Source: Acidiferrobacteraceae bacterium (lineage in GTDB: Bacteria; Pseudomonadota; Gammaproteobacteria; Arenicellales; UBA868). From it: a stretch of 55,227 nucleotides of DNA. The translations under genes and the position numbers were made by a program. This document shows, piece by piece, positions 4,451 through 44,961 of the stretch. The notes under the pieces were generated by a model. The model was not told the origin of the DNA. It saw nothing but the letters and a program-made list of their open reading frames with translations, and ran no database searches. Position 1 is the first letter of the stretch. Each line of letters begins with the position of its first letter. Location: NCBI GenBank assembly GCA_002726415.1, contig PBSU01000035.1, positions 1 through 55,227 on the forward strand. The letters are read 5' to 3'.

Positions 4451-6667
4451 TCAGCCACCGCTGATGGCATTGACAAAGGAAACCCGGTCACCATCGCGTA
4501 CCGGGGTCGTCCGCTCGCCAGACAGGATAGTCTGGCCGTTGAGAACAGCCATAGACAGTTCGTTGTCGAGTCGCCCAGCAAGGGTTGGGCAGTGTCGCTC
4601 CAGCGCAATGCGGAGTTCGGCCAGGTCGGCTACCGGCTCGTCCAGCAGGACCGTTTCGGCGGGTTGTTCCGCTTCCCGGGGAAAATCAACCGTGACCGCA
4701 AAGCCGGTGGCTGCGCGCACCAATGTCTCACGCCATTGTGGCCGCGGAAGCCCCGTCTCAGTCAGTCCAGACACCTCGTAAAAACGCCCTTTAAGAGCCT
4801 CAAATGCGATGGGATCGAGTCGCTCCCCCTGATAGGGGCCGTCACTGGCGCCTTCTTGAAACCAGCGTTGTGGGACAGTATCGTCGGCCGGGCCCAGGCC
4901 AAGGCGGTGATTTAGCAGTCGCTCCAGACCATTGATATTGGCGCCGGCCGCTTCCACCGCGGTGGCCGTGATATCAATTCCGGTGAGCCGGCTCAGTTGG
5001 ACTGCGAAGTCATTGCAATCGGGCAGACTGGGTGAGTTGAACAGCCAGGTATTAAAACGACACATACCCACTGCATCGCCACTGGCATAGACACGTTCAC
5101 AGCGCGCCACGGCATGCTCCTTACCCTCATAGTCGGTAGGTTTGGCAGAGACCTCGCCACCGTACAATTCCTGTTTAAACTGGGGGTCATCATTGATACG
5201 GGCATTGATTTCAAGTGTGACCCGGTTGCGTAGATGATCCATGCCGCGAGTTGCCACTGCCAGTCCAAGCGCGAAAGCTTTGATGATGCGTGCATCATGG
5301 GGATCTGACTGGAACAACCCCTTTGATGCCATGCGGTAGTCCAGCGCCGCAGGGGGATATTTGCCGCGCGCTACCGCCTTGCCCGAGTCGGCGAGGGTAT
5401 CGCCAAAACCGCTGCGTTCGGCGATCAACAGCAACAGGTCTTCAATCAGTTTACCGTCGCCCCAATTCAACTCAAGGCCACCGGTATTCGCGGTCGTAAT
5501 CAGGCCGTGCTGGTAGAGCTCCATGGCCCAGGCAATGGCACTTCCGGTGCTGGCTGAGTCTAGCCCGAGGTCGTTGAGCATATTGTTGAAACGAATAACC
5601 TGTTCGGGCTGGTCAATACCCAGGCCCGGCCCAAACTTGCCGAGCGTGACATATTCCGGGCCATCACCATGTGACCAGTTATCCTGATTCGCCTCTTTGC
5701 CGGGAGGGCAGGGCAGGCGGTTACGTGCACGGCAGTACACCGGGCATTTGTAGCACCCGGCCATGCCGTCGCGGTAGTCGTCAAAGTGCTCTGCATCGAG
5801 CGTCTCACGCCAGCCTGTGCGCTGATGATTGCGAACACCCAGCGCCCCAAGTAGTCGGCTCGGCTTGTAGAGAAACGGAGTGCCGACTGTTTTCAATACT
5901 TTACGGGTCACACTGGTGCTGAGGATCTTGCGGCCGATCGCTTTACTTGAGGCCCGGTAGTCGTCACCCATCGGCAAAGCCGCTGGACGGCCCAGGATCA
6001 GGATTGCCTTGAGCCCCAAGGCACCCATCTTGGCACCAGCACCGCCGCGTGCCCAGATGGACTTGGGCCCAGCCATAATTCCGGCAGACAAAACGAGATT
6101 CTCACCTGCTCGAGTAATGCGGGCCATTGCCATATCCCGGCCTTCCTGGCAGGCGAAGTCCCGTTCGATCGCGGTTGTGAGTGCAATGTTGTCCAGACCC
6201 TGGTAGCAATTCCCATCCAGAAACTCGGTCGCACCCGGGTCCAGTTTGAGCAGCGTCCAGCCTGGCGATCGCCCGTAAAGCACAATATGGTCAATGCCCT
6301 GGCGGCGCATAAATGACGGGAAATAATCACCCGCGTTACTATCGAGAATAGCGTCACTGTCTGGAGCTACGCCGCTAACGTTTCCACGGGGTGCTCCGGG
6401 GATCAGTGAGGTCAGTACTCCGGCGCCAAAGATCAGCGGAACTTGTGGATCCAATGGATCCAATCCTTCCGGGAGCAGGTTATACAGCAATGCCATGTTG
6501 GCGCCTCGGCCTCCCAGGAAATGCTCAAAGATCTCTTTTGGGAGAAAAATTTGGCGAGTTTCACGGTGCTGAAGGTCGACAAACAGCGTAGCGCCCTGGG
6601 TCGCAAATTGCGGCTTATCGTGAGATCGCTCGCACAGACGCCTGACCCGCTCACGGGTATCCATCAT
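4451..6667 (-). CDS. Aldehyde:ferredoxin oxidoreductase with C-terminal MoaD/ThiS-like domain
   Basis: At 738 residues this is about 100 longer than typical tungsten AORs. The N-terminal pterin-binding part has GGRGANMALLYN and APRGN (about 52-95). [4Fe-4S] ligands are Cys305, Cys308 and Cys312 (CYKCPVYC) plus Cys536 (VGMCRF). After the usual AOR end (RFYEVSGL, about 630) residues ~655-738 form a beta-grasp MoaD-like domain: FAVTVDF, LRIALERHCPTLAG, VLNG, DGDRVSFVNAISGG. It ends exactly in the Gly-Gly tail used by sulfur-carrier proteins. Family role: oxidation of aldehydes to acids with reduction of ferredoxin. It is last in the ring-degradation operon, and its ATG overlaps the regulator stop (ATGA). 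Likely substrates are aryl aldehydes, with the electrons usable by benzoyl-CoA reductase. Confidence 0.9.
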   Translation of the reverse strand: MMDTRERVRRLCERSHDKPQFATQGATLFVDLQHRETRQIFLPKEIFEHFLGGRGANMALLYNLLPEGLDPLDPQVPLIFGAGVLTSLIPGAPRGNVSGVAPDSDAILDSNAGDYFPSFMRRQGIDHIVLYGRSPGWTLLKLDPGATEFLDGNCYQGLDNIALTTAIERDFACQEGRDMAMARITRAGENLVLSAGIMAGPKSIWARGGAGAKMGALGLKAILILGRPAALPMGDDYRASSKAIGRKILSTSVTRKVLKTVGTPFLYKPSRLLGALGVRNHQRTGWRETLDAEHFDDYRDGMAGCYKCPVYCRARNRLPCPPGKEANQDNWSHGDGPEYVTLGKFGPGLGIDQPEQVIRFNNMLNDLGLDSASTGSAIAWAMELYQHGLITTANTGGLELNWGDGKLIEDLLLLIAERSGFGDTLADSGKAVARGKYPPAALDYRMASKGLFQSDPHDARIIKAFALGLAVATRGMDHLRNRVTLEINARINDDPQFKQELYGGEVSAKPTDYEGKEHAVARCERVYASGDAVGMCRFNTWLFNSPSLPDCNDFAVQLSRLTGIDITATAVEAAGANINGLERLLNHRLGLGPADDTVPQRWFQEGASDGPYQGERLDPIAFEALKGRFYEVSGLTETGLPRPQWRETLVRAATGFAVTVDFPREAEQPAETVLLDEPVADLAELRIALERHCPTLAGRLDNELSMAVLNGQTILSGERTTPVRDGDRVSFVNAISGG

Positions 6668-7563
6668 GGCCTGTGACTCGGTTTTCCTGGCTGAAGGCGC
6701 ACAATTTCCAATAAGCGTCGGATGCAGGCTGGCTCCGATAGTTCGCTGGTATTAATGACGGCATCAGCGAGTTGGTAATAGGGTTCGCGTTCGTTCAGCA
6801 TCTCTGTCAGGTCAGCCAGGGCTTCAGGGTTGCCTTCCATCGGTCGAAAATCCTTCTGTGCCAGAACCCGCTGCATATGATCTTCCGGGCGAGCTTGAAG
6901 CCAGATTGTAACGTAGTGGGTCAGCAGATAATTGAAACTCACCGGATCATTAATAATACCGCCGCCGGCTTCAAGAATGATACCTTCGTGTTGTTGGCGG
7001 ATGCGCGCCAGGGCGCGTTGTTCCACACGTCGGTAGGCCGCCTGGCCTGACAGAGCATGAATTTCGTCGGTAGACATACCGGCATCCTTCTCTGTTTCTT
7101 CGGTCAAGCGGACAAAAAGTCGATCGGTTTTCTCAGCCAGGGCCATCCCCAGGGTGCTTTTGCCCGCCCCCCGCACACCCAGCAGAGCAAAGCCTCCCTG
7201 CTTGTGTACATGACCGTCTATGTGATGGTCGAGAAAATCGCCCACCTGACGCAACTGTGCCGAGCTAAGCGCAGCGAGTCTTTCTGACAGCAGATTGCGG
7301 TCCCGATCCTGCAGTTGCTCGGTACAGACCAACTCGGATAGTGGAACCTGCATGGCGGCTGCCAGTTGGCGCAAGCGCCGGATGGAAGGGTTGCCTTTGC
7401 CGGTTTCAATCTGCGCGAGATAACGAGTGGAAATCTCCGAGTCATCAGCTAATTGCGCGCGTGTTATTCCCATGCGCAAGCGCAGGTTGCGGATCCGCTG
7501 GCCGAGACGGGCCAGAAAAGCCTCTTCCTGCCCATTGTGGTGCGAAGAGTGGGTGAAAACCAC
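6664..7563 (-). CDS. bzdR: XRE-type regulator with shikimate-kinase-like domain (BzdR/BoxR type)
   Basis: A 299-residue two-domain protein. Residues ~17-75 form an XRE/Cro helix-turn-helix (RIRNLRLRMGITRAQLA, then STRYLAQIETGKGNPS). Residues ~120-295 resemble shikimate kinase, with Walker A GVRGAGKST at 129-137. This architecture is characteristic of BzdR and BoxR, the benzoyl-CoA-responsive repressors of anaerobic and aerobic benzoate pathways. In those proteins the kinase-like domain binds benzoyl-CoA. The gene sits inside the catabolic operon between the SDR (20-base gap) and AOR (4-base overlap), so the regulator would be made together with its targets. The start is probably GTG at 7563. 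Its operator is not obvious: the expected paired TGCA motifs were not found near had. Confidence 0.88.
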   Translation of the reverse strand: MVFTHSSHHNGQEEAFLARLGQRIRNLRLRMGITRAQLADDSEISTRYLAQIETGKGNPSIRRLRQLAAAMQVPLSELVCTEQLQDRDRNLLSERLAALSSAQLRQVGDFLDHHIDGHVHKQGGFALLGVRGAGKSTLGMALAEKTDRLFVRLTEETEKDAGMSTDEIHALSGQAAYRRVEQRALARIRQQHEGIILEAGGGIINDPVSFNYLLTHYVTIWLQARPEDHMQRVLAQKDFRPMEGNPEALADLTEMLNEREPYYQLADAVINTSELSEPACIRRLLEIVRLQPGKPSHRP

Positions 7564-8349: not shown

Positions 8350-9120
8350 CTAGCGGTGTTGCCATCGCGGTGATCTTTTTTGCAAGAATGCCTCCAGTCC
8401 TTCGACGGCATCGTGCGTAGTCATCAGTTCATCCAGATACAGTTGCTCCACCGCAGCCAGCCGGGTTCTTACTCGACTGGCCAGATCGGCACGGGCCGCA
8501 CGGGTGGCCAGTCTCAAGCTGCTGGCACTACGCGAAGCCAGATGCTGATCAAAATAGGCCAGGGCTAACGCAGCCGGGTCATGATCCAGAGCAGTCACCA
8601 GCCCGCAGACCTTTGCATCAGCACCACTGATGGTGCGGCCGGAGAGAAGCAGATCGCTGGCTGCCGCCGGACCAATCAGTTCAGGAAGCAGGCAGGAAGC
8701 TGCCGGCGCGAACACGGCAAGTTGGATCTCAGGCTGACCCAGTGTGGCATTCGGGGCGGCGAACAACAGGCTTGCAGTACAGGCGAGTTCCAGACCTCCT
8801 CCCAGGCATTGTCCCTGGATGGCGGCCAGCACCGGTGTGGGTGAATCGAGCAAGGTCAGTACCAGTCGATGCAGGGATTTAAGCATTTGTTCGCATTCAC
8901 CCGGCAGGTGCTCTTCAACACTGGCGCCGAAACTGAAGTGGGGGCCCTCCGCCTGGAGCAAAATGGCGCGTAGGGTGGGCTCGTGGGCGTGCTGCTCAAG
9001 CGCAGTCTGTAGAGCCTCGACCATAGCCTGGTCGATGATATTGCGCTTGGGGCGAGCCAGCGTTAGTGTCAGTAAGCCAGCATCATGCCCCCATGAGACC
9101 TTGATGGGCGATGTTGTCAT
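8350..9120 (-). CDS. dch: Cyclohexa-1,5-diene-1-carbonyl-CoA hydratase
   Basis: A 256-residue crotonase-fold protein. The oxyanion-hole segment FSFGASVEEHLPG (about 62-74) and IQGQCLGGGLELA (about 102-114) fit the Dch/BzdW branch, in which the GASVEEH motif is characteristic. Reaction: addition of water to the dienoyl-CoA released by benzoyl-CoA reductase, giving 6-hydroxycyclohex-1-ene-1-carbonyl-CoA. The start codon overlaps the oah stop in an ATGA arrangement, which suggests translational coupling. Its neighbours Had and Oah catalyse the next two steps, so the assignment rests on both sequence and context. An ordinary enoyl-CoA hydratase is the only serious alternative. Confidence 0.9.
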   Translation of the reverse strand: MTTSPIKVSWGHDAGLLTLTLARPKRNIIDQAMVEALQTALEQHAHEPTLRAILLQAEGPHFSFGASVEEHLPGECEQMLKSLHRLVLTLLDSPTPVLAAIQGQCLGGGLELACTASLLFAAPNATLGQPEIQLAVFAPAASCLLPELIGPAAASDLLLSGRTISGADAKVCGLVTALDHDPAALALAYFDQHLASRSASSLRLATRAARADLASRVRTRLAAVEQLYLDELMTTHDAVEGLEAFLQKRSPRWQHR

Positions 9121-10253
9121 TTCCCTTGGCCTGGCATCAGGCTTTCGATTAATTCCACTGTCCAGGGTGTACCCTTGGCCAGTGCCTGGCGCAGCGCGAC
9201 GAAATCAATTTCCCGCCCAGTTTCCCGGTTACCCTCGTTGAAGGCGCGAAAGCCTGTCCGGGCCTCGTTCATCATGTTCAGTGCGAGCCAGGCTCTTGAG
9301 TTTTCTTTGTTGCGGTTCCATGCCTGCAGCTTGGGTTTACGTAGTTCCTCGACGCTTTTGGTCATGCACTCAGGGAAAGTGAGCAGCAGTTTGGCGCAAA
9401 GCTGTTCGACCTTTTTGTCCAGCAAGGTTAGATCCACCTGCCCTGATTTAAGTATCTGCTTGGCCTGTACGCGGCCCTCACCCTGCAGGAATTCACCGTG
9501 AATGATCTGGCCGAATCCGTCCACCATACGGTCGGTGACTACCATGGGGTTGGGTCGGAATTCTCCATCCACCTTGAGTGCCGGGACAACCTCGCAGCAT
9601 ATGCCCAGTCGGTAGGCCTTGTGCGCAGAAAATGGTTCACACAGGGTTCCGGAAACCATCGCTTGTTCGCAACCGATCATGATGGGCAGAAAGTCGGTTG
9701 AGCCGCCGATGGCAGCAGATCCATGTTTGGGGCCGGCCTGCCCGAAAAGGGCAAGATCCTGTGTTACGGAAAAGTCGCAGGCCATGCCGATCTCCTGCCC
9801 GCCACCAATGCGCATCCCGTTGACACGACAGATGACCGGCTTATCACAGCCAAGGATTGCCGAGACCATATCATTGAACAGGCGCATATATTGTCGATAT
9901 TCCTGGGGGTTGCCCGCGTAGTACTCGGCATATTCTTTGGTGTTGCCGCCGGTGCAAAAAGCCTTATCACCCGAACCGGTAAACACGACCGCATTGACGT
10001 CCCGGGAGGTGGAGGCACGGCCGAAGGCGTAGATAACACCTTTGACCATTTCAGTGGTGTACGAGTTGTATTGGGCTGGGTTGTCCAAGGTAATCCAGGC
10101 GTTGTACAGGCCCTCGACCGGGGTCCCATCCAATGTTGTTGCAGGACGCTTTTCAAAGGTCACACCAGGTGCGGCTTCTTCACTGCTCAAGGTATGATCG
10201 ACCAGGCTCTGTGGCGCTGTTTGGGCAACGATAGTTTCAATCGTCTCACTCAT
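9117..10253 (-). CDS. oah: 6-Oxocyclohex-1-ene-1-carbonyl-CoA hydrolase (ring opening)
   Basis: A 378-residue crotonase-superfamily protein, longer than normal hydratases and close to the usual length of Oah/BamA/BzdY. Recognisable segments include LDNPAQYNSYTTEMVKG, FCTGGNTKEYAEYY, RVNGMRIGGGQEIGMACDF and FGQAGPKHGSAAIGGST. The last is strongly conserved in this hydrolase and is widely used as a marker for anaerobic benzoyl-CoA degradation. Reaction: hydration and hydrolytic C-C cleavage of the cyclic oxo-acyl-CoA to 3-hydroxypimelyl-CoA. It is the second gene of the minus-strand operon, 16 bases after had. It is among the most secure functional calls in the window. Confidence 0.96.
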   Translation of the reverse strand: MSETIETIVAQTAPQSLVDHTLSSEEAAPGVTFEKRPATTLDGTPVEGLYNAWITLDNPAQYNSYTTEMVKGVIYAFGRASTSRDVNAVVFTGSGDKAFCTGGNTKEYAEYYAGNPQEYRQYMRLFNDMVSAILGCDKPVICRVNGMRIGGGQEIGMACDFSVTQDLALFGQAGPKHGSAAIGGSTDFLPIMIGCEQAMVSGTLCEPFSAHKAYRLGICCEVVPALKVDGEFRPNPMVVTDRMVDGFGQIIHGEFLQGEGRVQAKQILKSGQVDLTLLDKKVEQLCAKLLLTFPECMTKSVEELRKPKLQAWNRNKENSRAWLALNMMNEARTGFRAFNEGNRETGREIDFVALRQALAKGTPWTVELIESLMPGQGK

Positions 10254-10269
10254 TTCTATTACCTCTATA

Positions 10270-11337
10270 TTAGGGAACTAGGATTGCCCGGTGATTCAGG
10301 CGATGATCATGTGCCGCTGAAAAAATTTCATTGATCTTGTCCAGCGGGTGTTGTTCGATAAATGGGCCAAGTGCCACTTTACCGCTGAGAATGAGATCCA
10401 GGGCGGCCGGGTACAGCGATGGGGGGCAGCCCCAGTTGCCTAATGCTTTGGCATGAAAGGCCATGAGATTGGAAAGGCGGAACGCAGACTTTTCCATGGT
10501 GAATCCGACTACGGCCAGAGTTGCGCCGTGATTCACCAGACTAAAGGCGCTCTGTTGTCCGGCACCCGTGCCCGAGCACTCAAATATTTTCCATTCGGTA
10601 TCGGCGAGGTGCTGCTCACGGGCAAAGGCGCGAATCACCTTCTTCAGTTCGCGGCCCTCAACTTTGCGGGCGTCTACCGTCAGGGCTGCACCATGGGATT
10701 CAAGCAGGTCGAGCTTGGCAGTGTCGATATCGACCGCCACGACATGGGCGCCTAGCGCATTGGCAATCTGAACTGCGTAGCTGCCAATTCCACCAGCACC
10801 AATGACGATGACCAGATCGCCAGACTGGACCTGTGCCTGCATGGCGGCCAGATATGGGGTGGTTACGGCATCGGCTACAACCGCGAGATCGGGCAAGGTG
10901 AGTCCGGCCTGTTTAAGGCGGTTAAGGTCTACCTCGCACAGACCGTGTGCCGGGACCTGTATATGGCTGGCAAAGCCACCATCGATATCGTTACCTGGCA
11001 TTTGTTGAGAGCGACAGATAGTTTCTTTGCCTCGGTGGCATAGGTCGCATTGGCCGCAGGGGATCACAGCCGGCACAATAACCGCCCGCTCGAGCCAGTA
11101 TGTCGCCCCGTCACCAGCGGCGATGACGCGTCCACTGATCTCGTGGCCCAGTACGAGTGGTAACGCCCGATTCGTCTTAACCCCGTCGTAGTAGTAACCC
11201 AGATCTGTGTGACATACGCCACAGCCGGCGATTTCGACGGTGACTTGTCCCGGTGGTGGTGGGGACAGGGTCAGGGGCACACGCTGTAAGGGTTCGCCAG
11301 GGGCGGAAAAAACCCAGCGGTATGCGGCAGTGGTCAT
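10270..11337 (-). CDS. had: 6-Hydroxycyclohex-1-ene-1-carbonyl-CoA dehydrogenase
   Basis: A 355-residue zinc-type medium-chain alcohol dehydrogenase. Catalytic zinc residues are in [12 protein letters not shown] and GHEISGR; the structural zinc site is [15 protein letters not shown]. The NAD motif is [13 protein letters not shown] (about 178-190). Together with adjacent oah and dch it fits Had/BzdX, which oxidises the hydroxy-enoyl-CoA with NAD+ to the 6-oxo compound. It is the first gene of the operon. GGGAG lies upstream of the ATG at 11337, at a slightly long spacing. Generic Zn-ADH activity cannot be excluded from sequence alone, but the neighbours make the pathway role very likely. Confidence 0.93.
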
Positions 11338-15022: not shown

Positions 15023-16603
15023 TTGAGTAGCAGGACATTATCCCCGCTGGAATTGCCGCGCATGTACAACGCGACTACCCATTTTATCGATCGCCATCTC
15101 GACGAAGGTCGCGCCGATAAGATCGCCTTGATTGACGAACAGGGCAGTTATACCTATGCCGAGTTGGCCGAGCGGGTCAACCGTGCTGCGGGCGCGCTCT
15201 TACAGCTCGGTTTGGAACCGGAACAGCGTGTGCTCTTGTGTCTGCTGGATACTATCGATTTCCCGGCGGTATTTTGGGGAGCGATCAAAGCTGGGTTGGT
15301 ACCGGTTCCGGTCAACACGCTACTGACTGAGCAGGACTATACCTATATGTTGGATGACAGCCGGGCTCGTGCACTGGTGGTGAGTTCGGCACTGTACGAT
15401 GGGTTCGCCGGGCACCTGGTACAGCATGCCTTTCTCGAGCAGGTGATTGTGGCGGGTGGCGATAGCGGTGATCACCTGGCTCTGGACGAGCTTCTCGCCG
15501 CAGGCCCAGCGGTGACTCAGCCGGCTTCAACCACCTGCGACGACACGGCATTCTGGCTTTACACCTCCGGATCCACTGGTACGCCCAAGGGGGCCGTCCA
15601 CCAACATTCTGACCTGGTGCAAACGGCGCATCTTTATGGCAAGGGTGTACTGGGTATCCGCGAGGACGATATTGTGTTCTCGGCAGCAAAGCTGTTCTTC
15701 GCCTACGGATTGGGCAATGCGATGTCTTTTCCATTGCACGTAGGTGCTACTGCAGTGCTGTTGGCAGAAAGGCCAACACCCGATGCAGTTCTGAACCAGC
15801 TCGAGCGATGTGCCGCTACTATTTTCTACGGCGTACCCACGCTGTATGGTGCCATCCTCGCGGAGCCTAACAACGACCAGACCCGTGTATCTGATCAACT
15901 GCGCTTGTGTGTTTCGGCCGGTGAGGCCCTGCCAGAAGAGGTTAGCCGCGAGTGGGAGCGGCGTTTCCGGGTCCCGATACTCGATGGGCTGGGTAGTACT
16001 GAAATGCTGCATATTTTTCTGAGTAACCGGCCCGATGATATGCGCTATGGGAGTACTGGCAAGCCGGTGCCGGGTTATGAGTTGCGGGTTGTGGATGAGC
16101 ATGATGTTGAGGTTGCTACAGGTGAAATCGGTGAATTACTGGTGCGTGGCCCCTCAAGCGCGTCGTGTTATTGGAATCAGCGTGACAAGAGTCTGAATAC
16201 CTTTCAGGGTGAATGGACCCGCTCCGGCGACAAGTATTTTCTCGATGAGGAAGGCTACTACCGTTACTGTGGCCGCACCGATGATATGCTCAAGGTGGGC
16301 GGAATCTGGGTATCACCTTTCGAGGTTGAAAGTGCGTTGCTTGCCGAGAGTCGGGTATTAGAGGCAGCGGTAGTGGGCCAACAGGACGAACAGGGGCTGG
16401 TCAAACCCAAGGCGGTGGTCGTGTTACAACAAGGTGTCATCGCCTCTGCGGCTCTGGTTAGCGAACTACAGGCCTTCGTAAAAGAGCGCCTGGCGCCTTT
16501 CAAGTACCCACGGTGGATAGAATTTATCGAGGAATTGCCCAAGACGGCCACAGGAAAGATTCAACGTTTTAAGTTGCGCGTGCAAGATGAGGACGATGAC
16601 TGA
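15023..16603 (+). CDS. Benzoate-CoA ligase (copy 1)
   Basis: A 526-residue AMP-forming ligase of the benzoate/4-hydroxybenzoate-CoA ligase family. The start is TTG 15023, supported by GGAGTAAGGA immediately upstream. The P-loop-like motif is YTSGSTGTPKGAVH. Family signatures include LFFAYGLGNAMSFPL, DGLGSTEMLHIFLSN and the hinge YYRYCGRTDDMLKVGGIWVSP. The catalytic lysine is in LPKTATGKIQR. It converts benzoate, ATP and CoA to benzoyl-CoA in the cytoplasm, feeding the reductase pathway. The family also accepts 4-hydroxy, fluoro or amino analogues, so the substrate range is open. A second paralogue lies at 18161. Confidence 0.9.
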   Translation: MSSRTLSPLELPRMYNATTHFIDRHLDEGRADKIALIDEQGSYTYAELAERVNRAAGALLQLGLEPEQRVLLCLLDTIDFPAVFWGAIKAGLVPVPVNTLLTEQDYTYMLDDSRARALVVSSALYDGFAGHLVQHAFLEQVIVAGGDSGDHLALDELLAAGPAVTQPASTTCDDTAFWLYTSGSTGTPKGAVHQHSDLVQTAHLYGKGVLGIREDDIVFSAAKLFFAYGLGNAMSFPLHVGATAVLLAERPTPDAVLNQLERCAATIFYGVPTLYGAILAEPNNDQTRVSDQLRLCVSAGEALPEEVSREWERRFRVPILDGLGSTEMLHIFLSNRPDDMRYGSTGKPVPGYELRVVDEHDVEVATGEIGELLVRGPSSASCYWNQRDKSLNTFQGEWTRSGDKYFLDEEGYYRYCGRTDDMLKVGGIWVSPFEVESALLAESRVLEAAVVGQQDEQGLVKPKAVVVLQQGVIASAALVSELQAFVKERLAPFKYPRWIEFIEELPKTATGKIQRFKLRVQDEDDD

Positions 16604-18160: not shown

Positions 18161-19783
18161 GTGTCAGATAGCACCATGAGTGATCAGGGGGGTCTGTTTG
18201 CCAGAATTGATGTCGCCGCTGATCCGCCGCGGATCGAGGTGCCCCGTCTTTATAACGCGGCGCTGGAGTTCATTGATCGCAACGTAGTTGAAGGACATGG
18301 CAAGCAGATTGCGTTGATCGACGATGATGGCTGCTACACCTATCGGGAGTTATGTCAGCGTGTCAATCAGGCGGGTCATGTCTTGCGGGCAGCCGGTGCC
18401 GGGATGGAGCAGCGAGTGTTATTGTGCTTGGATGGCGGCATTGATTTTGCATCCCTTTTTTGGGGTGCGATCAAGATCGGGGCGGTACCCGTTCCGGTCA
18501 ATCCTTTGTTAACCCAGGATGATTACGCAGGCCTGATCAACGATAGTCGACCCCGGGTGTTAGTGGCCCACCCAGAGCAAATCAGTCATTTTAAGAGCAC
18601 ACTTTTCCAGCAGCCATTACCCTGTCGGCTGTTGACAGTAGATACCAGCCGGTGTGGGGCGGGTGAGCTGGCGCGGTTGATGGCAACGGCACCGGTGGAG
18701 CTTAAGGCAGCTGCAACCACGGCGGACGATACAGCGTTCTGGCTTTATACCTCGGGCTCGACTGGCAGCCCTAAAGCAGTTGTGCACCTGCATCGCAGTC
18801 TGATTCAGACCGCGGTGCTGTGTGGCCAGAACGTATTGGGAATCGGCCCATCTGATCGTGTTTTTTCTGCAGCCAAGATGTTTTTTGCCTACGGTCTGGG
18901 TAACAGCATGAGTTTTCCGTTTGCGGTTGGTGCTACCTCGATTGTGAGCGCACACCGGCCAACAGCGGAGAACGTCCTCGCCGTCATTGATGAACATCGC
19001 CCGACAGTGTTCTGTGGCGTGCCTACGCTGTACCATAATCTCCTGAACATCGTCGGGGTAGAGGAGGCCGAATTACTGGCTACACTGCGCCTGTATGTCT
19101 CGGCTGGTGAACCTCTTCCAGAGTCAATCGGACAACGCTGGCAGGCGTTATCTGGCTGTGAGGTTATCGACGGGCTGGGCACCACCGAAATGCTGCAGAC
19201 TTTTCTCAGTAATCGGCCGGGACAGGTCCGCTATGGTACGACCGGTGTTGTTGTGCCCGGGTATCAGATCAAGGTGGTGAATTCGATGGGAACAGCAGTG
19301 GCACCCGGTGAGGTAGGCGAATTAATGGTAGCCGGTCCAAGTGCTGGTGCGGGTTACTGGAACCGCCGGGCGCAAAGCATCCGGACCTTTGTTGGACCTT
19401 GGACTCGGACCGGCGATCAGTATTTTGTTGGTTCGGATCATGCCTATCGTTACTGCGGTCGCAGTGATGACATGCTTAAGGTAGGGGGTATCTGGGTCTC
19501 ACCCTATGAACTTGAATCATTGCTGATTCGACACCCTCTGGTGGCCGAATGTGCAGTGGTAGGACAGCCAGACGCAGGCGGTCTGATCAAGCCCAAGGCT
19601 TTTGTGGTGCTCAAAGACTCGGCTTTGGCAGGTGACGGTGCGGTTGAGACACTGCAGTGTTTTGCACGTGAGCACCTGGCACCCTATAAATATCCGCGCT
19701 GGGTCGAATTTCTGGATGAGTTGCCCCGCACCGCAACGGGCAAGGTCCGTCGCTACCGGTTGCGTGAGCAACTCGGCCTGTAG
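18161..19783 (+). CDS. Benzoate-CoA ligase (copy 2)
   Basis: A 540-residue paralogue of the ligase at 15023, aligned along its whole length. Motifs: YTSGSTGSPKAVVH (the usual Gly after Lys is Ala here), MFFAYGLGNSMSFPF, DGLGTTEMLQTFLSN, YRYCGRSDDMLKVGGIWVSP, and LPRTATGKVRR with the catalytic lysine. The start is GTG 18161 or ATG 18176; neither has a strong ribosome site. It probably activates benzoate or a substituted analogue, with a specificity different from copy 1. It is followed after two bases by an alpha/beta-hydrolase, so the two are coupled. Which ligase serves benzoate cannot be told from sequence. Confidence 0.88.
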   Translation: MSDSTMSDQGGLFARIDVAADPPRIEVPRLYNAALEFIDRNVVEGHGKQIALIDDDGCYTYRELCQRVNQAGHVLRAAGAGMEQRVLLCLDGGIDFASLFWGAIKIGAVPVPVNPLLTQDDYAGLINDSRPRVLVAHPEQISHFKSTLFQQPLPCRLLTVDTSRCGAGELARLMATAPVELKAAATTADDTAFWLYTSGSTGSPKAVVHLHRSLIQTAVLCGQNVLGIGPSDRVFSAAKMFFAYGLGNSMSFPFAVGATSIVSAHRPTAENVLAVIDEHRPTVFCGVPTLYHNLLNIVGVEEAELLATLRLYVSAGEPLPESIGQRWQALSGCEVIDGLGTTEMLQTFLSNRPGQVRYGTTGVVVPGYQIKVVNSMGTAVAPGEVGELMVAGPSAGAGYWNRRAQSIRTFVGPWTRTGDQYFVGSDHAYRYCGRSDDMLKVGGIWVSPYELESLLIRHPLVAECAVVGQPDAGGLIKPKAFVVLKDSALAGDGAVETLQCFAREHLAPYKYPRWVEFLDELPRTATGKVRRYRLREQLGL

Positions 19784-39771: not shown

Positions 39772-39799
39772 TTGACAAAATAACGTTATTTAATTTAAT
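39772..39799 (+). promoter_or_regulatory. Strong-looking sigma-70 promoter of the benzoyl-CoA reductase operon
   Basis: TTGACA (39772-39777) and TTTAAT (39794-39799) form a nearly consensus -35/-10 pair with a 16-base spacer. The spacer contains a perfect 12-base palindrome, AATAACGTTATT (39779-39790). Predicted transcription start is near 39806. The remaining upstream part of the 319-base gap (39516-39771) holds no recognisable gene; a weak GAGCT/AGCTC stem after the DppF-type gene lacks a T-run. Confidence 0.6.
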
Positions 39800-39806
39800 G
39801 TATTAG

Positions 39807-39826
39807 CATACTGACTGGTCGGTATG
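39807..39826. promoter_or_regulatory. TetR-type operator candidate ahead of the TetR-BcrC fusion gene
   Basis: CATACTGACTGGTCGGTATG is a 20-base dyad in which 16 positions agree with its own reverse complement. It begins at the predicted transcription start and ends eight bases before ATG 39835, overlapping the first base of the ribosome site GGGAG. Length and layout fit the sites of TetR-family repressors. The obvious candidate binder is the regulator domain encoded by the gene itself, which would give autoregulation of the whole reductase operon. Confidence 0.6.
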
Positions 39827-39834
39827 GGAGAAAA

Positions 39835-41685
39835 ATGACTATAGCGCACATGACACAAACGCCCGCTGCGGTGGAGCGGATCCTGGCCGTGGCCGAGCCG
39901 CTGTTTCTGGCCGCCAGCTACGCTGACGTGACGATGGACCAGATTGCCCGCAAGGCTGGATTGACGAAAGGTGGCCTGTACCACCATTTCGTCAGTAAGG
40001 AAGGTCTGTACCTGGAAATGATGCAGGCCGACCTTGCGGAGAAACAGGCATTGTTTACCGTGGCGGCCCGCCCCCCGGGTGATTGTCGGGCCCGGCTTCG
40101 CAAACTGACCCATGCGTACTTCGAAATGCCCGATCACAAGCGTCAATTGATCAGCCTGATCCGGCGCAACAGTAACGTCCTGGGCGAAGCTGCGCGCACG
40201 CGCTTGATCAGCGCCTACCAGCGAGCGCTTCCCAACCAGATCCTATCCATCATTAAAGATGGAATACGCGCAGGGGAGATTCAGACCGGCGACCCCCGTC
40301 TGCTGGCCTGGTCATTCGTCGCACTGGTGGAAACTGCGATCAGTGCGCATGGTGACCGGGTGTTAGAAGATCCTTCAGAAAAACTTGATTTTGTTCTGGA
40401 CCTTTTTTTCCGAGGGGCTCAATTCCCAGCGGATAGTCAAGGTGGCACGGTGCTGAAGAACAGTGCCTTGACAGCATCGGGAAGGCCGCTGGCAGTAACC
40501 GCTCCGACCGGTTATTCCGGAAGCGACGTTTTTCCTGAGTGGCAGGGCCAGAATTTAGACGACATGCTGCTGGCTTGTCGTGATCTGGTCGAGGATGGCG
40601 ACTTTCCGACGGTGCAACGTTGGCGGGATGGCGGTGGCCGGGTTCTGGGCCATTTTCAAGTGTATTTTCCTGAGGAAATCGCGCATGCCGCGGGGATGCT
40701 ACCCTTCAAATTGCGCGGTGCTCCCGTTGAGCCCGATCATGCAGATTCTCGCTTTGGTTCGTACCTGTGTTCTATCCTAAAGACGTCGCTGGAGCTTGTG
40801 CTGAGTGACCGGGTAGAACTGGATATGTTTGTTACCCATCCGATCTGTGATGCGGCCCGAAATCTGGCCGCAGTTTGGGAACGTAACAGCGAACATCCCT
40901 GCCAGATCTTATACCTGCCGCAGAATGCAAACTCCGCTGATAGCGCGCGTTATTTGCGTAACGAGTACGCGCGGCTGATGGAAGTCGTCCAGCAGGTTTC
41001 CGGCACTACGATCACCGAAGATGACCTTCGAAACTCAATTGAGTTGTTCAATCGCAATCGAGCCTTGATCAGGGAGTTATACGACATTAAGCGTGAAACA
41101 CCCTGGCTGTTAAGCGCCGAGGATGCCTATTGCCTGGTATCGGTAGGCGGGATGGTGCCACGCGAGGAGCACAATGCCTTGCTTGAGAAAGTGTTGCCGA
41201 TGATCCGGGATCGGGCCGACTCTAACCAGGAGGACCGGGTCCGGGTGGTATTTGAGGGCGGCTTCTGCGAACAGCCACCGTTAGATTTGATTCGTATGGT
41301 CGGCCGCTCGTGTTACGTCGTGGATGACGACTTTTTAATTGGTCTGCGTTGGATTCTTGAAGACGTGCCGAACACGGGTGATCCATTGCACCAGTTGGCC
41401 GAAGCTTATCTGGAAAAATCATCTTACAGCCCAGTGCAGCACGACCTGCGCAAGCCCAAGGAGAAGATGCTCAAAGAACGAATCAGCAGTGCCAGAGCAG
41501 ATGCCGCCATCATTACCGCGGCCAAGATGTGTGAGCCGGGGTTGGAGGAGCAGGTCTGCTATACCCGCTCTTTGGATGAGGACAATATCGGGTACTTCGT
41601 CAGTGAGTTCGAAGAAAACATGACGAGCTTTGACCATCTGGGTCTGCAGATCGAAACTTTTATGGAAAACCTGATGTACCAGTGA
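39835..41685 (+). CDS. bcrC: TetR-family regulator fused to benzoyl-CoA reductase catalytic subunit (BcrC/BzdN type)
   Basis: A single uninterrupted frame of 616 residues. Residues ~10-60 are a TetR helix-turn-helix (VTMDQIARKAGLTKGGLYHHF), and ~65-195 a TetR-like helical ligand domain. A linker (~196-240) follows, then residues ~241-616 are a complete BcrC/BzdN subunit: YFPEEIAHAAGMLPF, SYLCSILKTSLEL, HPICDAARNL, FEGGFCEQPPLDLIRM and MCEPG. Cys312, Cys338 and Cys566 are the likely [4Fe-4S] ligands, so the enzyme half looks active. Standalone BcrC proteins are about 375-385 residues. GGGAG precedes ATG 39835. An internal ATG at 40564 (residue 244) could yield free BcrC but has no clear ribosome site. 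It heads the reductase operon. Confidence 0.9.
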   Translation: MTIAHMTQTPAAVERILAVAEPLFLAASYADVTMDQIARKAGLTKGGLYHHFVSKEGLYLEMMQADLAEKQALFTVAARPPGDCRARLRKLTHAYFEMPDHKRQLISLIRRNSNVLGEAARTRLISAYQRALPNQILSIIKDGIRAGEIQTGDPRLLAWSFVALVETAISAHGDRVLEDPSEKLDFVLDLFFRGAQFPADSQGGTVLKNSALTASGRPLAVTAPTGYSGSDVFPEWQGQNLDDMLLACRDLVEDGDFPTVQRWRDGGGRVLGHFQVYFPEEIAHAAGMLPFKLRGAPVEPDHADSRFGSYLCSILKTSLELVLSDRVELDMFVTHPICDAARNLAAVWERNSEHPCQILYLPQNANSADSARYLRNEYARLMEVVQQVSGTTITEDDLRNSIELFNRNRALIRELYDIKRETPWLLSAEDAYCLVSVGGMVPREEHNALLEKVLPMIRDRADSNQEDRVRVVFEGGFCEQPPLDLIRMVGRSCYVVDDDFLIGLRWILEDVPNTGDPLHQLAEAYLEKSSYSPVQHDLRKPKEKMLKERISSARADAAIITAAKMCEPGLEEQVCYTRSLDEDNIGYFVSEFEENMTSFDHLGLQIETFMENLMYQ

Positions 41686-41719: not shown

Positions 41720-43012
41720 ATGGGACAGGATAGTCAAAGTGGTATCGTGGGGCGGGGCGCCCGGGATGGAGCCGAACTTTTCAGGCAGTGGTTTTCTTCG
41801 CTGGGTGATACCGCCGAACAGGGAGCACAGAGCGCCTATGTGTTTGTGATGGGCAGCATGAATGAAATCCTGAAGTCTTTTGATCTGCCGGTGGTGTTTC
41901 CCGAGATCAACTCGCTCCAGACTGCAGTACGACGGGTGGCCCACGAGTATCTCAACGAAGCTGAGGATTACGGCTATTCGCCCGATATCTGCGGCTACGT
42001 CAAAGCTGACGTGGCAGTACAGTTGCGCAACGGCGAGCACCCGATGGGCAGGATTCCTAAGCCTTCCCTGGCTGTTTATACCAATGCCTGTAATACCTAC
42101 ATCAAGTGGGCGGAGATCTGGGAGCGCATGTACCAGATTCCGATTTTCACACTGGACGTTCCGGGCAGTCGCGAGGGTGGGGTGCACACCGGCCCAGGCG
42201 ACCGGTCGTTCGAGAACGACCGCAGTTATGTCGAGGCCCAGGTCCGTGAATTGATTACCCTGTGCGAGGAAGTTACCGGGCGCAAGTTCGACATTGACAA
42301 GCTGCGCGAAGTATTGGGTTATGCCAACGACGTGGCCAGCAGTTGGCAGCGGGTGTTGGAGCTGAACGCCAGCCAGCCTTCGGTATTCAATGCCGTCACC
42401 GAGGGAACGGTATACCTGGGTGTTGCAAACGGCTTTCGTGGTACTGAAACCGGCAGTCGATACTTTAAGGAACTGGTCGAAGAGATGGAATACAAGTCGG
42501 CCAATGGTATCGGCACCCTGACGGAAGAGAAATACCGACTGATTTTTGTGGGTGTTCCCTGTTACCCGATTTTCCGGCGATTTAACGAAATGTTCTCTGA
42601 CTGGGGCGGCACTTTCGTTAATTCAACCTACCTGTGGTTCGCCTCTGGCGGTACCAACAGGGGCTTCCAGTACGATCTTCAGCGCCCGGTGGAGAGCCTG
42701 GCTGAGGGTGTATTGCTCAGCGTTCGTGATGCCATGGATAGCATGTTCCATCAGAGTTACATGGTTGAGGACATGATTGACGATATGCATGTGGACGGCG
42801 TGGTTTATCACCCGATCAAGAGCTGTCGCACAGTTTCTACCGGACTGGCGGATAGTCGACGCTACCTGATGGAGAAGTGTGATGTGCCGTCGCTGTTTCT
42901 GGAATCGGACATGATGGATAAGCGGGTTGTTTCTGAGGCCCAGATGAAGAATCGGATAGATGCGTTCTTTGAGGGTCTTGCATCGCGTCGCAGCCAGCAG
43001 GCGGCGGCCTGA
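41720..43012 (+). CDS. bcrB: Benzoyl-CoA reductase catalytic subunit B (BcrB/BzdO type)
   Basis: A 430-residue member of the HgdB/BcrB family. Recognisable parts are [68 protein letters not shown] and [22 protein letters not shown]. Cys91, Cys124 and Cys369 are the likely [4Fe-4S] ligands. With the BcrC-type half of the preceding protein it forms the dearomatising centre that reduces benzoyl-CoA by two electrons. It follows the fusion gene by 34 bases, with GAGGAGAGAT upstream of the start. Length is normal for the family. Confidence 0.93.
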
Positions 43013-43032: not shown

Positions 43033-43848
43033 ATGGCGTATGCAGCAGGCGTAGATGTGGGGTCGACCCAGAGTAAGGCCGCGATTGTTGACGAGGAGGG
43101 TAACTTAGTGGCAACCGCTCTTGATGATACCGGGGCGAATGTCGTGCAGGCAGCCGAGAAGGTATACCAACAGGCTTTGCAGGCCGCTAAATTGCGTGAA
43201 GAAGAGGTCGACTATGTGATCGGGACGGGTTACGGGCGCTACAAAGTGACTTTTGGTAACGCCCAGGTTACCGAGATCAGTTGTCACGGACGAGGTGCGG
43301 TAAAGATGTTCCCCGAAACCCGCACGGTAATCGACATGGGTGGCCAGGATACCAAGGCGATCAGTGTCAGCCCAGCCGGGGAAATCAACGATTTCTGCAT
43401 GAATGATAAGTGTGCCGCGGGAACTGGCCGTTTTCTGGGAGCTGCCGCGATGGCGCTGGATCTGTCTTTGGACGATCTGGGCCCCACGGCCTTAAAGTCA
43501 GACAAACCTGTACGGATCAGCACCACCTGTACGGTCTTCGCCGAGTCAGAGGTGCTGTCCTGGCTGGGCAAAGGAAAGAAACTGCCGGACATTCTCTGGG
43601 GGGTACACCAGTCGATCGCCACCCGGACCATCGGCTTGGTGCGCCGGGTGGGGCTGGAAGAGAAGATTACATTTACTGGCGGGGTGACCCGTAACGTGGC
43701 CATGGTTAAGGCGCTGGAAGATCGCCTGGGCATTCGCTTAAATGTGAATGAACAGGCTCACTACATGGGTGCGCTGGGCGCGGCACTTTTTGCTCTTGAC
43801 CATATTCTAGATAGCCGCAAACCTGCGGCCAACTCAGAGGTGGCGTAA
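43033..43848 (+). CDS. Benzoyl-CoA reductase ATP-hydrolysing activase subunit 1 (BadF/BadG/BcrA/BcrD family)
   Basis: A 271-residue ASKHA-fold ATPase. [15 protein letters not shown] is the phosphate-1 motif and [11 protein letters not shown] the phosphate-2 motif. Cys127 in NDKCAAGTG and Cys166 in [10 protein letters not shown] are the predicted ligands of the cluster shared between the two activase subunits. The ATPase half of class I benzoyl-CoA reductase couples two ATP to electron transfer. At 271 residues it fits the compact Azoarcus (BzdP/BzdQ) arrangement rather than Thauera BcrA (about 430). GTGYGRYKV and ISCHGRGA look BzdQ-like, but the P/Q labels are not certain. The stop overlaps the next ATG (TAATG). 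Confidence 0.9.
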
Positions 43849-44678
43849 TGGACTGTACAGTCGGTATAGACGTAGGCTCGACCTACACCAAATGTGTCAT
43901 CCTTTCGGCTGACGGAAAGATCGTTAGCCGAAAGTTGGCACAGACTGGGTTTAAATTGGGAGAAGTCTCGGCGCGATTATTGAACGAGACTCTGGCGGAA
44001 AGCGGGCTGGAACGCAGCGACATTGGCTATGTGATCGCTACCGGCTTTGGTCGTCACCAAGTTGAAGACAAGGACGCGGCGGTGACTGATCTCACCGCTG
44101 CGGCTCGTGGCACGGCGTTCTTTTTTCCCGATACCCGCACCGTGCTCGATATCGGTGGCCAGACTATGAAGGCAAGCCGGATTGACGAGAACTGCAAAGT
44201 GGATTCGTTTCGTCTGAACGATAAGTGCGCAGCGGGGACCGGCGCGTTTTTAGAAAAGACGGCGCATTATATGGGCTTCAAAACAGAGGATGTCGGACCG
44301 TTATTGACGACCTCACGTGAGTCTGTCTCCATATCCGGGGTATGTGCTGTGTTTGCCGAGTCTGAAGTGATCAATCACCTGTCGCAAGGCACCGCACCGG
44401 CGGATATTATGCAAGGTGCGATCTCATCGTTGATTAAGCGATCAGTCCAGTTAATGAAACGGGTTCGTGCCGAACCCGGGTATACCCTGGTTGGCGGCCT
44501 GTTACGGTTTCGCACGATGGTCGATGAGGTGCAAGACAAACTGGGTCAAAAAGTCAATGTGCCCGAAGGGGATCTGGTTCAGTTCGCGGCCGCTATGGGC
44601 GCTGCCGTGCTGGGACACCGGCGGATGCAGCAGTTGGGTATGGGCACCGGCCTTACAGTGGGTTCGGGTGCTGCCTAA
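43848..44678 (+). CDS. Benzoyl-CoA reductase ATP-hydrolysing activase subunit 2 (BadF/BadG/BcrA/BcrD family)
   Basis: A 276-residue paralogue of the preceding protein. Motifs are [48 protein letters not shown] and SGVCAVFAESEVINHL. The predicted cluster cysteines again fall at residues 127 and 166. Together the two subunits would make the heterodimeric activase. Having two compact subunits of nearly equal length marks an Azoarcus-type enzyme. The start overlaps the previous stop by one base, so synthesis is coupled. Its end overlaps a small downstream frame at 44668. Confidence 0.9.
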   Translation: MDCTVGIDVGSTYTKCVILSADGKIVSRKLAQTGFKLGEVSARLLNETLAESGLERSDIGYVIATGFGRHQVEDKDAAVTDLTAAARGTAFFFPDTRTVLDIGGQTMKASRIDENCKVDSFRLNDKCAAGTGAFLEKTAHYMGFKTEDVGPLLTTSRESVSISGVCAVFAESEVINHLSQGTAPADIMQGAISSLIKRSVQLMKRVRAEPGYTLVGGLLRFRTMVDEVQDKLGQKVNVPEGDLVQFAAAMGAAVLGHRRMQQLGMGTGLTVGSGAA

Positions 44679-44961
44679 GCCGTCGGTATCAGGTGGCTGT
44701 CGCAGTTCAGCGAGGACTGGCGCTGATGACACGGCTGATTCCAGTGCGGTCTCAGCCGACCCCACTCTTACCGCAGACGGCTGGGTAAAGCGTTATCTGG
44801 CCGATCCCGCCCGATCTGATGAAGCACGGGAACTGTACGCTTCGATGGGTTATGACGTGTACGAGCAAAAACTCGATCCTGCTGATTTCCCATCCAGTTG
44901 TGGTGAGTGCCCCTCAGTGGTCTGCCAGGGTTATGTCATGATCTATACCCGTCGGCGTTGA
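44668..44961 (+). CDS. Small Cys-containing protein coupled to the benzoyl-CoA reductase operon
   Basis: A 97-residue frame from GTG 44668, which overlaps the end of the activase gene; no later start codon exists in this frame before the conserved-looking part. The first ~35 residues are Ser/Ala/Asp-rich and low complexity. The rest looks like real protein: DGWVKRYLADPARSDEARELYASMGYDVYEQKL, then SSCGECPSVVCQGYVMIYTRRR, with Cys78, Cys81 and Cys86 (CxxCxxxxC). It is not a ferredoxin, since it lacks the CxxCxxCxxxCP sets. I do not recognise the family. Position suggests an accessory or metal-binding role in reductase assembly or electron delivery, which is inference. Confidence 0.6.
   Translation: MLPKPSVSGGCRSSARTGADDTADSSAVSADPTLTADGWVKRYLADPARSDEARELYASMGYDVYEQKLDPADFPSSCGECPSVVCQGYVMIYTRRR

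Follow-up and report, generated by a model that had tools for sequence, protein, structure and literature searches.

The window, the whole 55,227-nt stretch of DNA analysed here, comes from contig PBSU01000035.1 of an Acidiferrobacteraceae bacterium (order Arenicellales; assembly GCA_002726415.1) and contains on its forward strand a single open frame of 616 amino acids (39835..41685) in which a TetR-type regulator is fused to a class I benzoyl-CoA reductase subunit. Such a frame had been proposed in the first-pass annotation and was borne out, as no interruption was present and Pfam domains of both halves were detected. The TetR half occupies residues 10-195 (39862..40419), with a helix-turn-helix matching TetR_N (PF00440, residues 16-62, E 9.8e-14, 51.3 bits against a cut-off of 24) and a ligand and dimerisation domain of residues ~82-195 matching TetR_C_24 (PF17932, residues 82-165, E 3.1e-6, 27.9 bits against a cut-off of 26.4). 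A linker (residues 196-231; 40420..40527), disordered, fast-evolving and always in frame, leads into an MbdN/BcrC/BzdN-type subunit (residues 232-616; 40528..41682) assigned by homology and Foldseek, in which the HGD-D profile was matched end to end (residues 275-613, E 9.1e-61). The limits originally given for the TetR half (~10-195) stood, while homology to the reductase begins at residue ~232 and not at 241. An AlphaFold2 model built from a 54-row alignment exhibited two well-folded halves (mean pLDDT 84.5), with helices in the TetR half up to residue 195 and a disordered stretch in the linker (residues 198-228, pLDDT below 50). A model of the TetR half folded alone without an alignment was poor (pLDDT 46) and was set aside. 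Foldseek comparisons indicated that the TetR half resembles several TetR structures, among them AibR (5k7z, solved with isovaleryl-CoA).

The type of reductase subunit was examined by alignment and by structural comparison. Residues 232-615 aligned to MbdN, the gamma subunit of 3-methylbenzoyl-CoA reductase (9g87_B, E 6.4e-155), which was also the best Foldseek match (9gai_B/9g87_B, 57% identity), and the half was closer to MbdN than to Thauera BcrC or BzdN. Assignment to the Thauera-type BcrC family (TIGR02263) failed, with 244.8 bits against a curated cut-off of 421.15. The predicted cluster cysteines Cys312, Cys338 and Cys566 were indeed present, were invariant in all 36 aligned reductase rows and occur in MbdN as well. 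By sequence alignment, read with the published BzdNO structure (PMC11971306), they correspond to BzdN Cys73, Cys100 and Cys327; the six-cysteine set of the BzdN double-cubane cluster (36/73/100/263/293/327) is incomplete in this alignment, with equivalents of residues 36, 263 and 293 absent both here and in MbdN. In the solved BzdNO complex, BzdN carries the electron-transferring double-cubane cluster while BzdO binds benzoyl-CoA and holds the catalytic cluster (PMC11971306). By analogy, the fusion contains the MbdN-type subunit that relays electrons and not the one that binds benzoyl-CoA. The earlier designation as the catalytic subunit was, hence, right as to a BcrC/BzdN-type subunit but not as to catalysis, since the substrate and the catalytic cluster belong, by comparison with BzdNO, to the partner.

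A candidate for this partner follows directly on the same strand, an MbdO-like subunit (41720..43012; 9g87_A, E 8e-167) that by homology would be the benzoyl-CoA-binding catalytic subunit, a role taken from BzdO (PMC11971306). Next come two ATP-dependent activator subunits of the BcrA/BcrD family, also on the forward strand, at 43033..43848 (subunit 1; PF01869, E 1.3e-63, TIGR00241) and 43848..44678 (subunit 2; PF01869, E 3e-51, TIGR00241). The class I MBR-type set is complete in one operon, with an MbdN-type and MbdO-type pair and two activators, and the fused subunit, its MbdO-like partner and the activators are predicted to form an MBR-like class I benzoyl-CoA reductase. Directly after the activators lies a gene for a small cysteine-containing protein of ~97 amino acids with the motif CGECPSVVC (44668..44961, forward strand). 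This product matched no Pfam family, and tblastn detected homologues in many phyla, at over 40 reductase loci; it is possibly an overlooked small component of MBR-like reductases.

Upstream of the frame, a putative promoter (TTGACA-N16-TTTAAT; 39772..39799, forward strand) was read from the sequence just before a predicted operator, and TTGACA occurs at a similar position in the fused relatives L002 to L005. A strict consensus scan gave this promoter no score because it demands an A at position 2 of the second hexamer. The predicted operator, CATACTGACTGGTCGGTATG (20 nt; 39807..39826, forward strand), is near-palindromic, matching at 8 of 10 positions, and positions 39808-39825 read ATAC-TGACTGGTCG-GTAT, fitting the ATACN10GTAT motif. 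This motif is the operator of MbdR, a repressor of Aromatoleum (Azoarcus) sp. CIB that is released by 3-methylbenzoyl-CoA (PMC4424350). CATACTGACTGGTCGGTATG was kept exactly in the fused loci L002 to L004, and a perfect palindrome, CATACCGACCGGTCGGTATG, precedes the unfused tetR gene in L019 and L026; the box-linked locus L095 also has a perfect palindrome. Most other tetR loci were preceded by related sites, single or overlapping, and at most loci none of 200 shuffled upstream regions gave an equal match. When up to 3 mismatches were allowed, CATACTGACTGGTCGGTATG was the sole site in the window's own genome assembly (~80% complete). The site noted at 39807-39826 in the first-pass annotation thus exists and is conserved before fused and unfused relatives as a true operator would be. 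In L005, from the most distant fused genome (G076), the operator is degraded (5 of 18 mismatches) and a scan of this genome detected no operator match at up to 2 mismatches; DNA binding is, therefore, less sure there. The recognition-helix stretch TKGGLYHHF was near-invariant in 23 relatives. Six loci of Acidimicrobiia (L030, L036, L051, L052, L075 and L080) have an overlapping tandem operator, ACCGACCGGTCAGTCGGTCGGT, upstream of tetR, which suggests two TetR dimers per site.

Among 109 genomes searched from the window's order, four further assemblies (public loci L002 to L005) carried the fusion as one stop-free frame, with identities to the fusion in the window of 90% (G087), 88% (G107), 88% (G088) and 66% (G076). 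The carriers are thus a small set of marine gammaproteobacteria, all uncultured. As a stop-free fusion recurs in these four assemblies, it is not an assembly join. Ka/Ks values were computed among the window, L002 and L003. Values were 0.01 to 0.08 for the helix-turn-helix, about 0.1 for the TetR C-terminal domain (where Ks was measurable) and 0.02 to 0.06 for the reductase half, while the linker exhibited values of 0.5 to 0.67, so that the halves are under strong purifying selection and the linker is not. Synonymous divergence was near saturation, yet the length of the linker changed only in frame. These results indicated that both halves are in use and that the frame itself is kept. The proposal that both halves are intact was upheld, and the fusion is conserved by selection.

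The five fused genes formed one clade on the reductase tree (SH-aLRT 97), beside a clade with an adjacent separate tetR. A separate tetR, 45 to 55% identical, lies directly 5' of the reductase gene at 15 loci from Acidimicrobiia, Planctomycetota, Gammaproteobacteria and others, and a 4-nt overlap of the two genes (ATGA or GTGA) is possible in 12 of these loci, or in 13 of 16 when locus L123 is included. Such overlaps are the usual mark of translational coupling. A sample of 395 genomes around Acidimicrobiia included 32 that bear the reductase, none of them with a fusion, and no fusion beyond the window's own was present in 369 sampled genomes of the window's class, indicating that the fusion is a derived state so far confined to this order. 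The best explanation, and one that we consider likely as a whole, is that a tetR-reductase gene pair coupled in translation became fused within Arenicellales. Several long frames were rejected as further fusions. The 615-aa frame of L026, a candidate sixth fusion, has TetR and reductase in different frames and a spurious long N-terminal extension; the long N-terminal extensions of L010, L055, L072, L078 and L080 contain no TetR in that frame; and the 654-aa frame of G169 (L107) encodes a BcrC-type subunit whose Met is preceded by spurious low-complexity sequence. Genome G087 holds, in addition to the fusion, the unfused pair L123 (G087:C88), with an ATGA overlap; this pair adjoins genes that look like xanthine dehydrogenase and extradiol dioxygenase types, and its upstream palindrome, CCATACTTACGGGTATG, looks unlike the fused operator. 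The tetR-reductase pair of L064, from a record titled Armatimonadetes, grouped with Acidimicrobiia in both trees, due either to a mis-binned contig or to gene transfer. No relevant description of a TetR-reductase or TetR-enzyme fusion was found in the open-access literature, which agrees with the initial view that no regulator-reductase fusion of this kind had been described.

Full-length homology of the TetR half to MbdR (4uds) failed, with only residues 8-72, the helix-turn-helix, matching; as the match is so limited, we infer the ligand from context. The closest TetR paralogues (52 to 57% identity), found in sister genomes of the same genus and family, are encoded immediately 5' of boxC behind the same operator, and on the TetR tree these box-linked regulators grouped with the fused ones (99/97). 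The paralogues of L092 to L097 and L124 have the ATACYGACYRGTCRGTAT operator directly before boxC. Benzoyl-CoA is the intermediate common to the oxygen-using box route and the reductase route. The position of these sister regulators before boxC, behind a shared operator, makes benzoyl-CoA the probable effector and the TetR half its probable sensor. An apparent benzoyl-CoA regulon spans both routes, aerobic (box) and anaerobic (reductase). The window's genome also carries a box operon, before which there is neither such an operator nor a TetR of this group. In G088, where the fusion is present and boxC gave no match, a box-type TetR near a contig start (L125; G088:C48:227-783) is split over two frames, due to a frameshift or a pseudogene.

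Other genes of aromatic degradation are present in the window, including dch, oah and had (8350-11337), two benzoate-CoA ligases (15023-16603 and 18161-19783) and a 2-oxoacid oxidoreductase. A BzdR-like regulator (6664-7563, reverse strand) and a tungsten aldehyde-oxidoreductase-like gene (AFOR; 4451-6667, reverse strand) lie beside dch/oah/had. The AFOR gene was rejected as a class II reductase replacing the fused enzyme, as the match to 1aor (E 1e-51) exceeded that to BamB (4z3w, E 4e-24, with the best stretch N-terminal only); in L097, a gene of this AFOR type lies ahead of the TetR-boxC operon. The ~80% complete assembly of the window's genome contained no further pair of HGD-D genes. Across the five fused genomes, oah was present in all and the fused pair provided the only HGD-D genes in four, so that the fused protein is probably part of a working benzoyl-CoA reductase.

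We consider it likely that the frame specifies an autorepressor covalently tethered to a reductase subunit of its own operon. The TetR half would dimerise and bind the 39807-39826 palindrome between promoter and start codon, repressing its own four-subunit reductase operon, until an aroyl-CoA, most likely benzoyl-CoA, entered the TetR ligand domain and caused release from the DNA. The reductase half would meanwhile serve as the MbdN-type electron-relay subunit with the MbdO-like partner and the two activators. Selection has retained the fusion, which forces repressor and enzyme to a 1:1 ratio; with this ratio and one site in the genome assembly, induction would occur only while substrate exceeds enzyme and would be followed by rapid shut-off, the presumed benefit being a tight, self-limiting induction by substrate. 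As the halves are intact, the fusion selected and the operator conserved, a single polypeptide most likely combines binding of its own promoter with a role in dearomatisation, as the first-pass annotation had suggested.

We regard as unlikely the possibility that the chain is cut within the linker, or that the reductase half has an internal start, releasing a free repressor and a free subunit. A long, disordered and fast-evolving linker would suit such a separation, and the unfused arrangement functions in relatives. However, neither an internal start codon nor a ribosome site is conserved in the linker, the frame stays open with only in-frame indels although synonymous sites are near saturation, and a stop codon would suffice if separate proteins were favoured.

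Another improbable reading is that the reductase acts as its own repressor, with assembly, cluster state or substrate flux setting operator occupancy, such that the enzyme would count its working copies. In its strict form as a trigger enzyme, in which cluster state, subunit assembly or substrate within the reductase complex governs DNA binding by the TetR half, we view this as about equally improbable; the first-pass annotation had raised it by comparison with PutA and BirA. The halves are covalently linked at 1:1 stoichiometry and MBR-type enzymes are permanent heterotetramers (PMC11971306), so that dimerisation of TetR, or its binding to DNA, could face competition from assembly of the enzyme. 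The TetR half retains its own C-terminal ligand domain, however, and its unfused relatives act as free repressors without a reductase half; furthermore, a flexible, unconserved linker would provide poor conformational coupling, the substrate site is on the other subunit and the known analogue MbdR is released by aroyl-CoA itself (PMC4424350). The best-supported mechanism, instead, involves covalent attachment of an enzyme subunit to a repressor that has an effector pocket of its own.

It is very unlikely that the TetR half has lost its regulatory function and instead helps the reductase to dimerise or acts as its scaffold; degradation of the operator in L005/G076 would be consistent with such a change, but the low Ka/Ks of the helix-turn-helix, the near identity of the recognition helix to that of unfused relatives and the exact operator in the window and L002 to L004 argue against it. 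An assembly or frameshift artefact, for which one could cite only that all genomes used were metagenome-assembled, has a negligible probability given a stop-free fusion in five assemblies differing by 10 to 34% in protein sequence and a frame kept despite near-saturated synonymous divergence.

The fusion is a naturally conserved one, joining a TetR repressor to one subunit of an iron-sulfur enzyme complex for aromatic degradation. The path to it is visible in living lineages, from separate genes with a shared operator through a 4-nt overlap to fusion, providing a clear-cut setting in which to ask how a regulator benefits from attachment to its enzyme. These findings also suggest a set of TetR proteins that share a defined operator, likely sense benzoyl-CoA and serve both the oxygen-free reductase route and the oxygen-using box route.

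The nearest known system is MbdR/MbdONPQ of Aromatoleum sp. CIB and Thauera chlorobenzoica, which shares with the fusion a TetR repressor, the ATACN10GTAT motif, MbdN- and MbdO-type subunits and an expected aroyl-CoA substrate. MbdR is, however, a separate protein, alike in the helix-turn-helix only, whereas here TetR is fused to the MbdN-type subunit and, unlike MbdR, would control its own operon directly through one site in the window's genome assembly. The unfused tetR-reductase pairs of Acidimicrobiia, Planctomycetota and others have orthologous halves and share gene order and operator class, but consist of two genes, mostly with the 4-nt overlap. AibR resembles the TetR half in its fold and in having an acyl-CoA effector (5k7z), but is unfused and has a different ligand. 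BzdR/BoxR, like the fusion, are regulators of benzoyl-CoA degradation in which a helix-turn-helix is joined to an enzyme-derived (shikimate-kinase-like) domain. That enzyme-like domain acts as a sensor, whereas the fused enzyme half retains its cluster cysteines and is under strong selection. PutA and BirA also combine DNA binding, enzyme function and autoregulation in one polypeptide. In those proteins switching depends on the redox state or substrate of the enzymatic portion, while the fused TetR has its own effector domain and is linked to the enzyme by a floppy tether.
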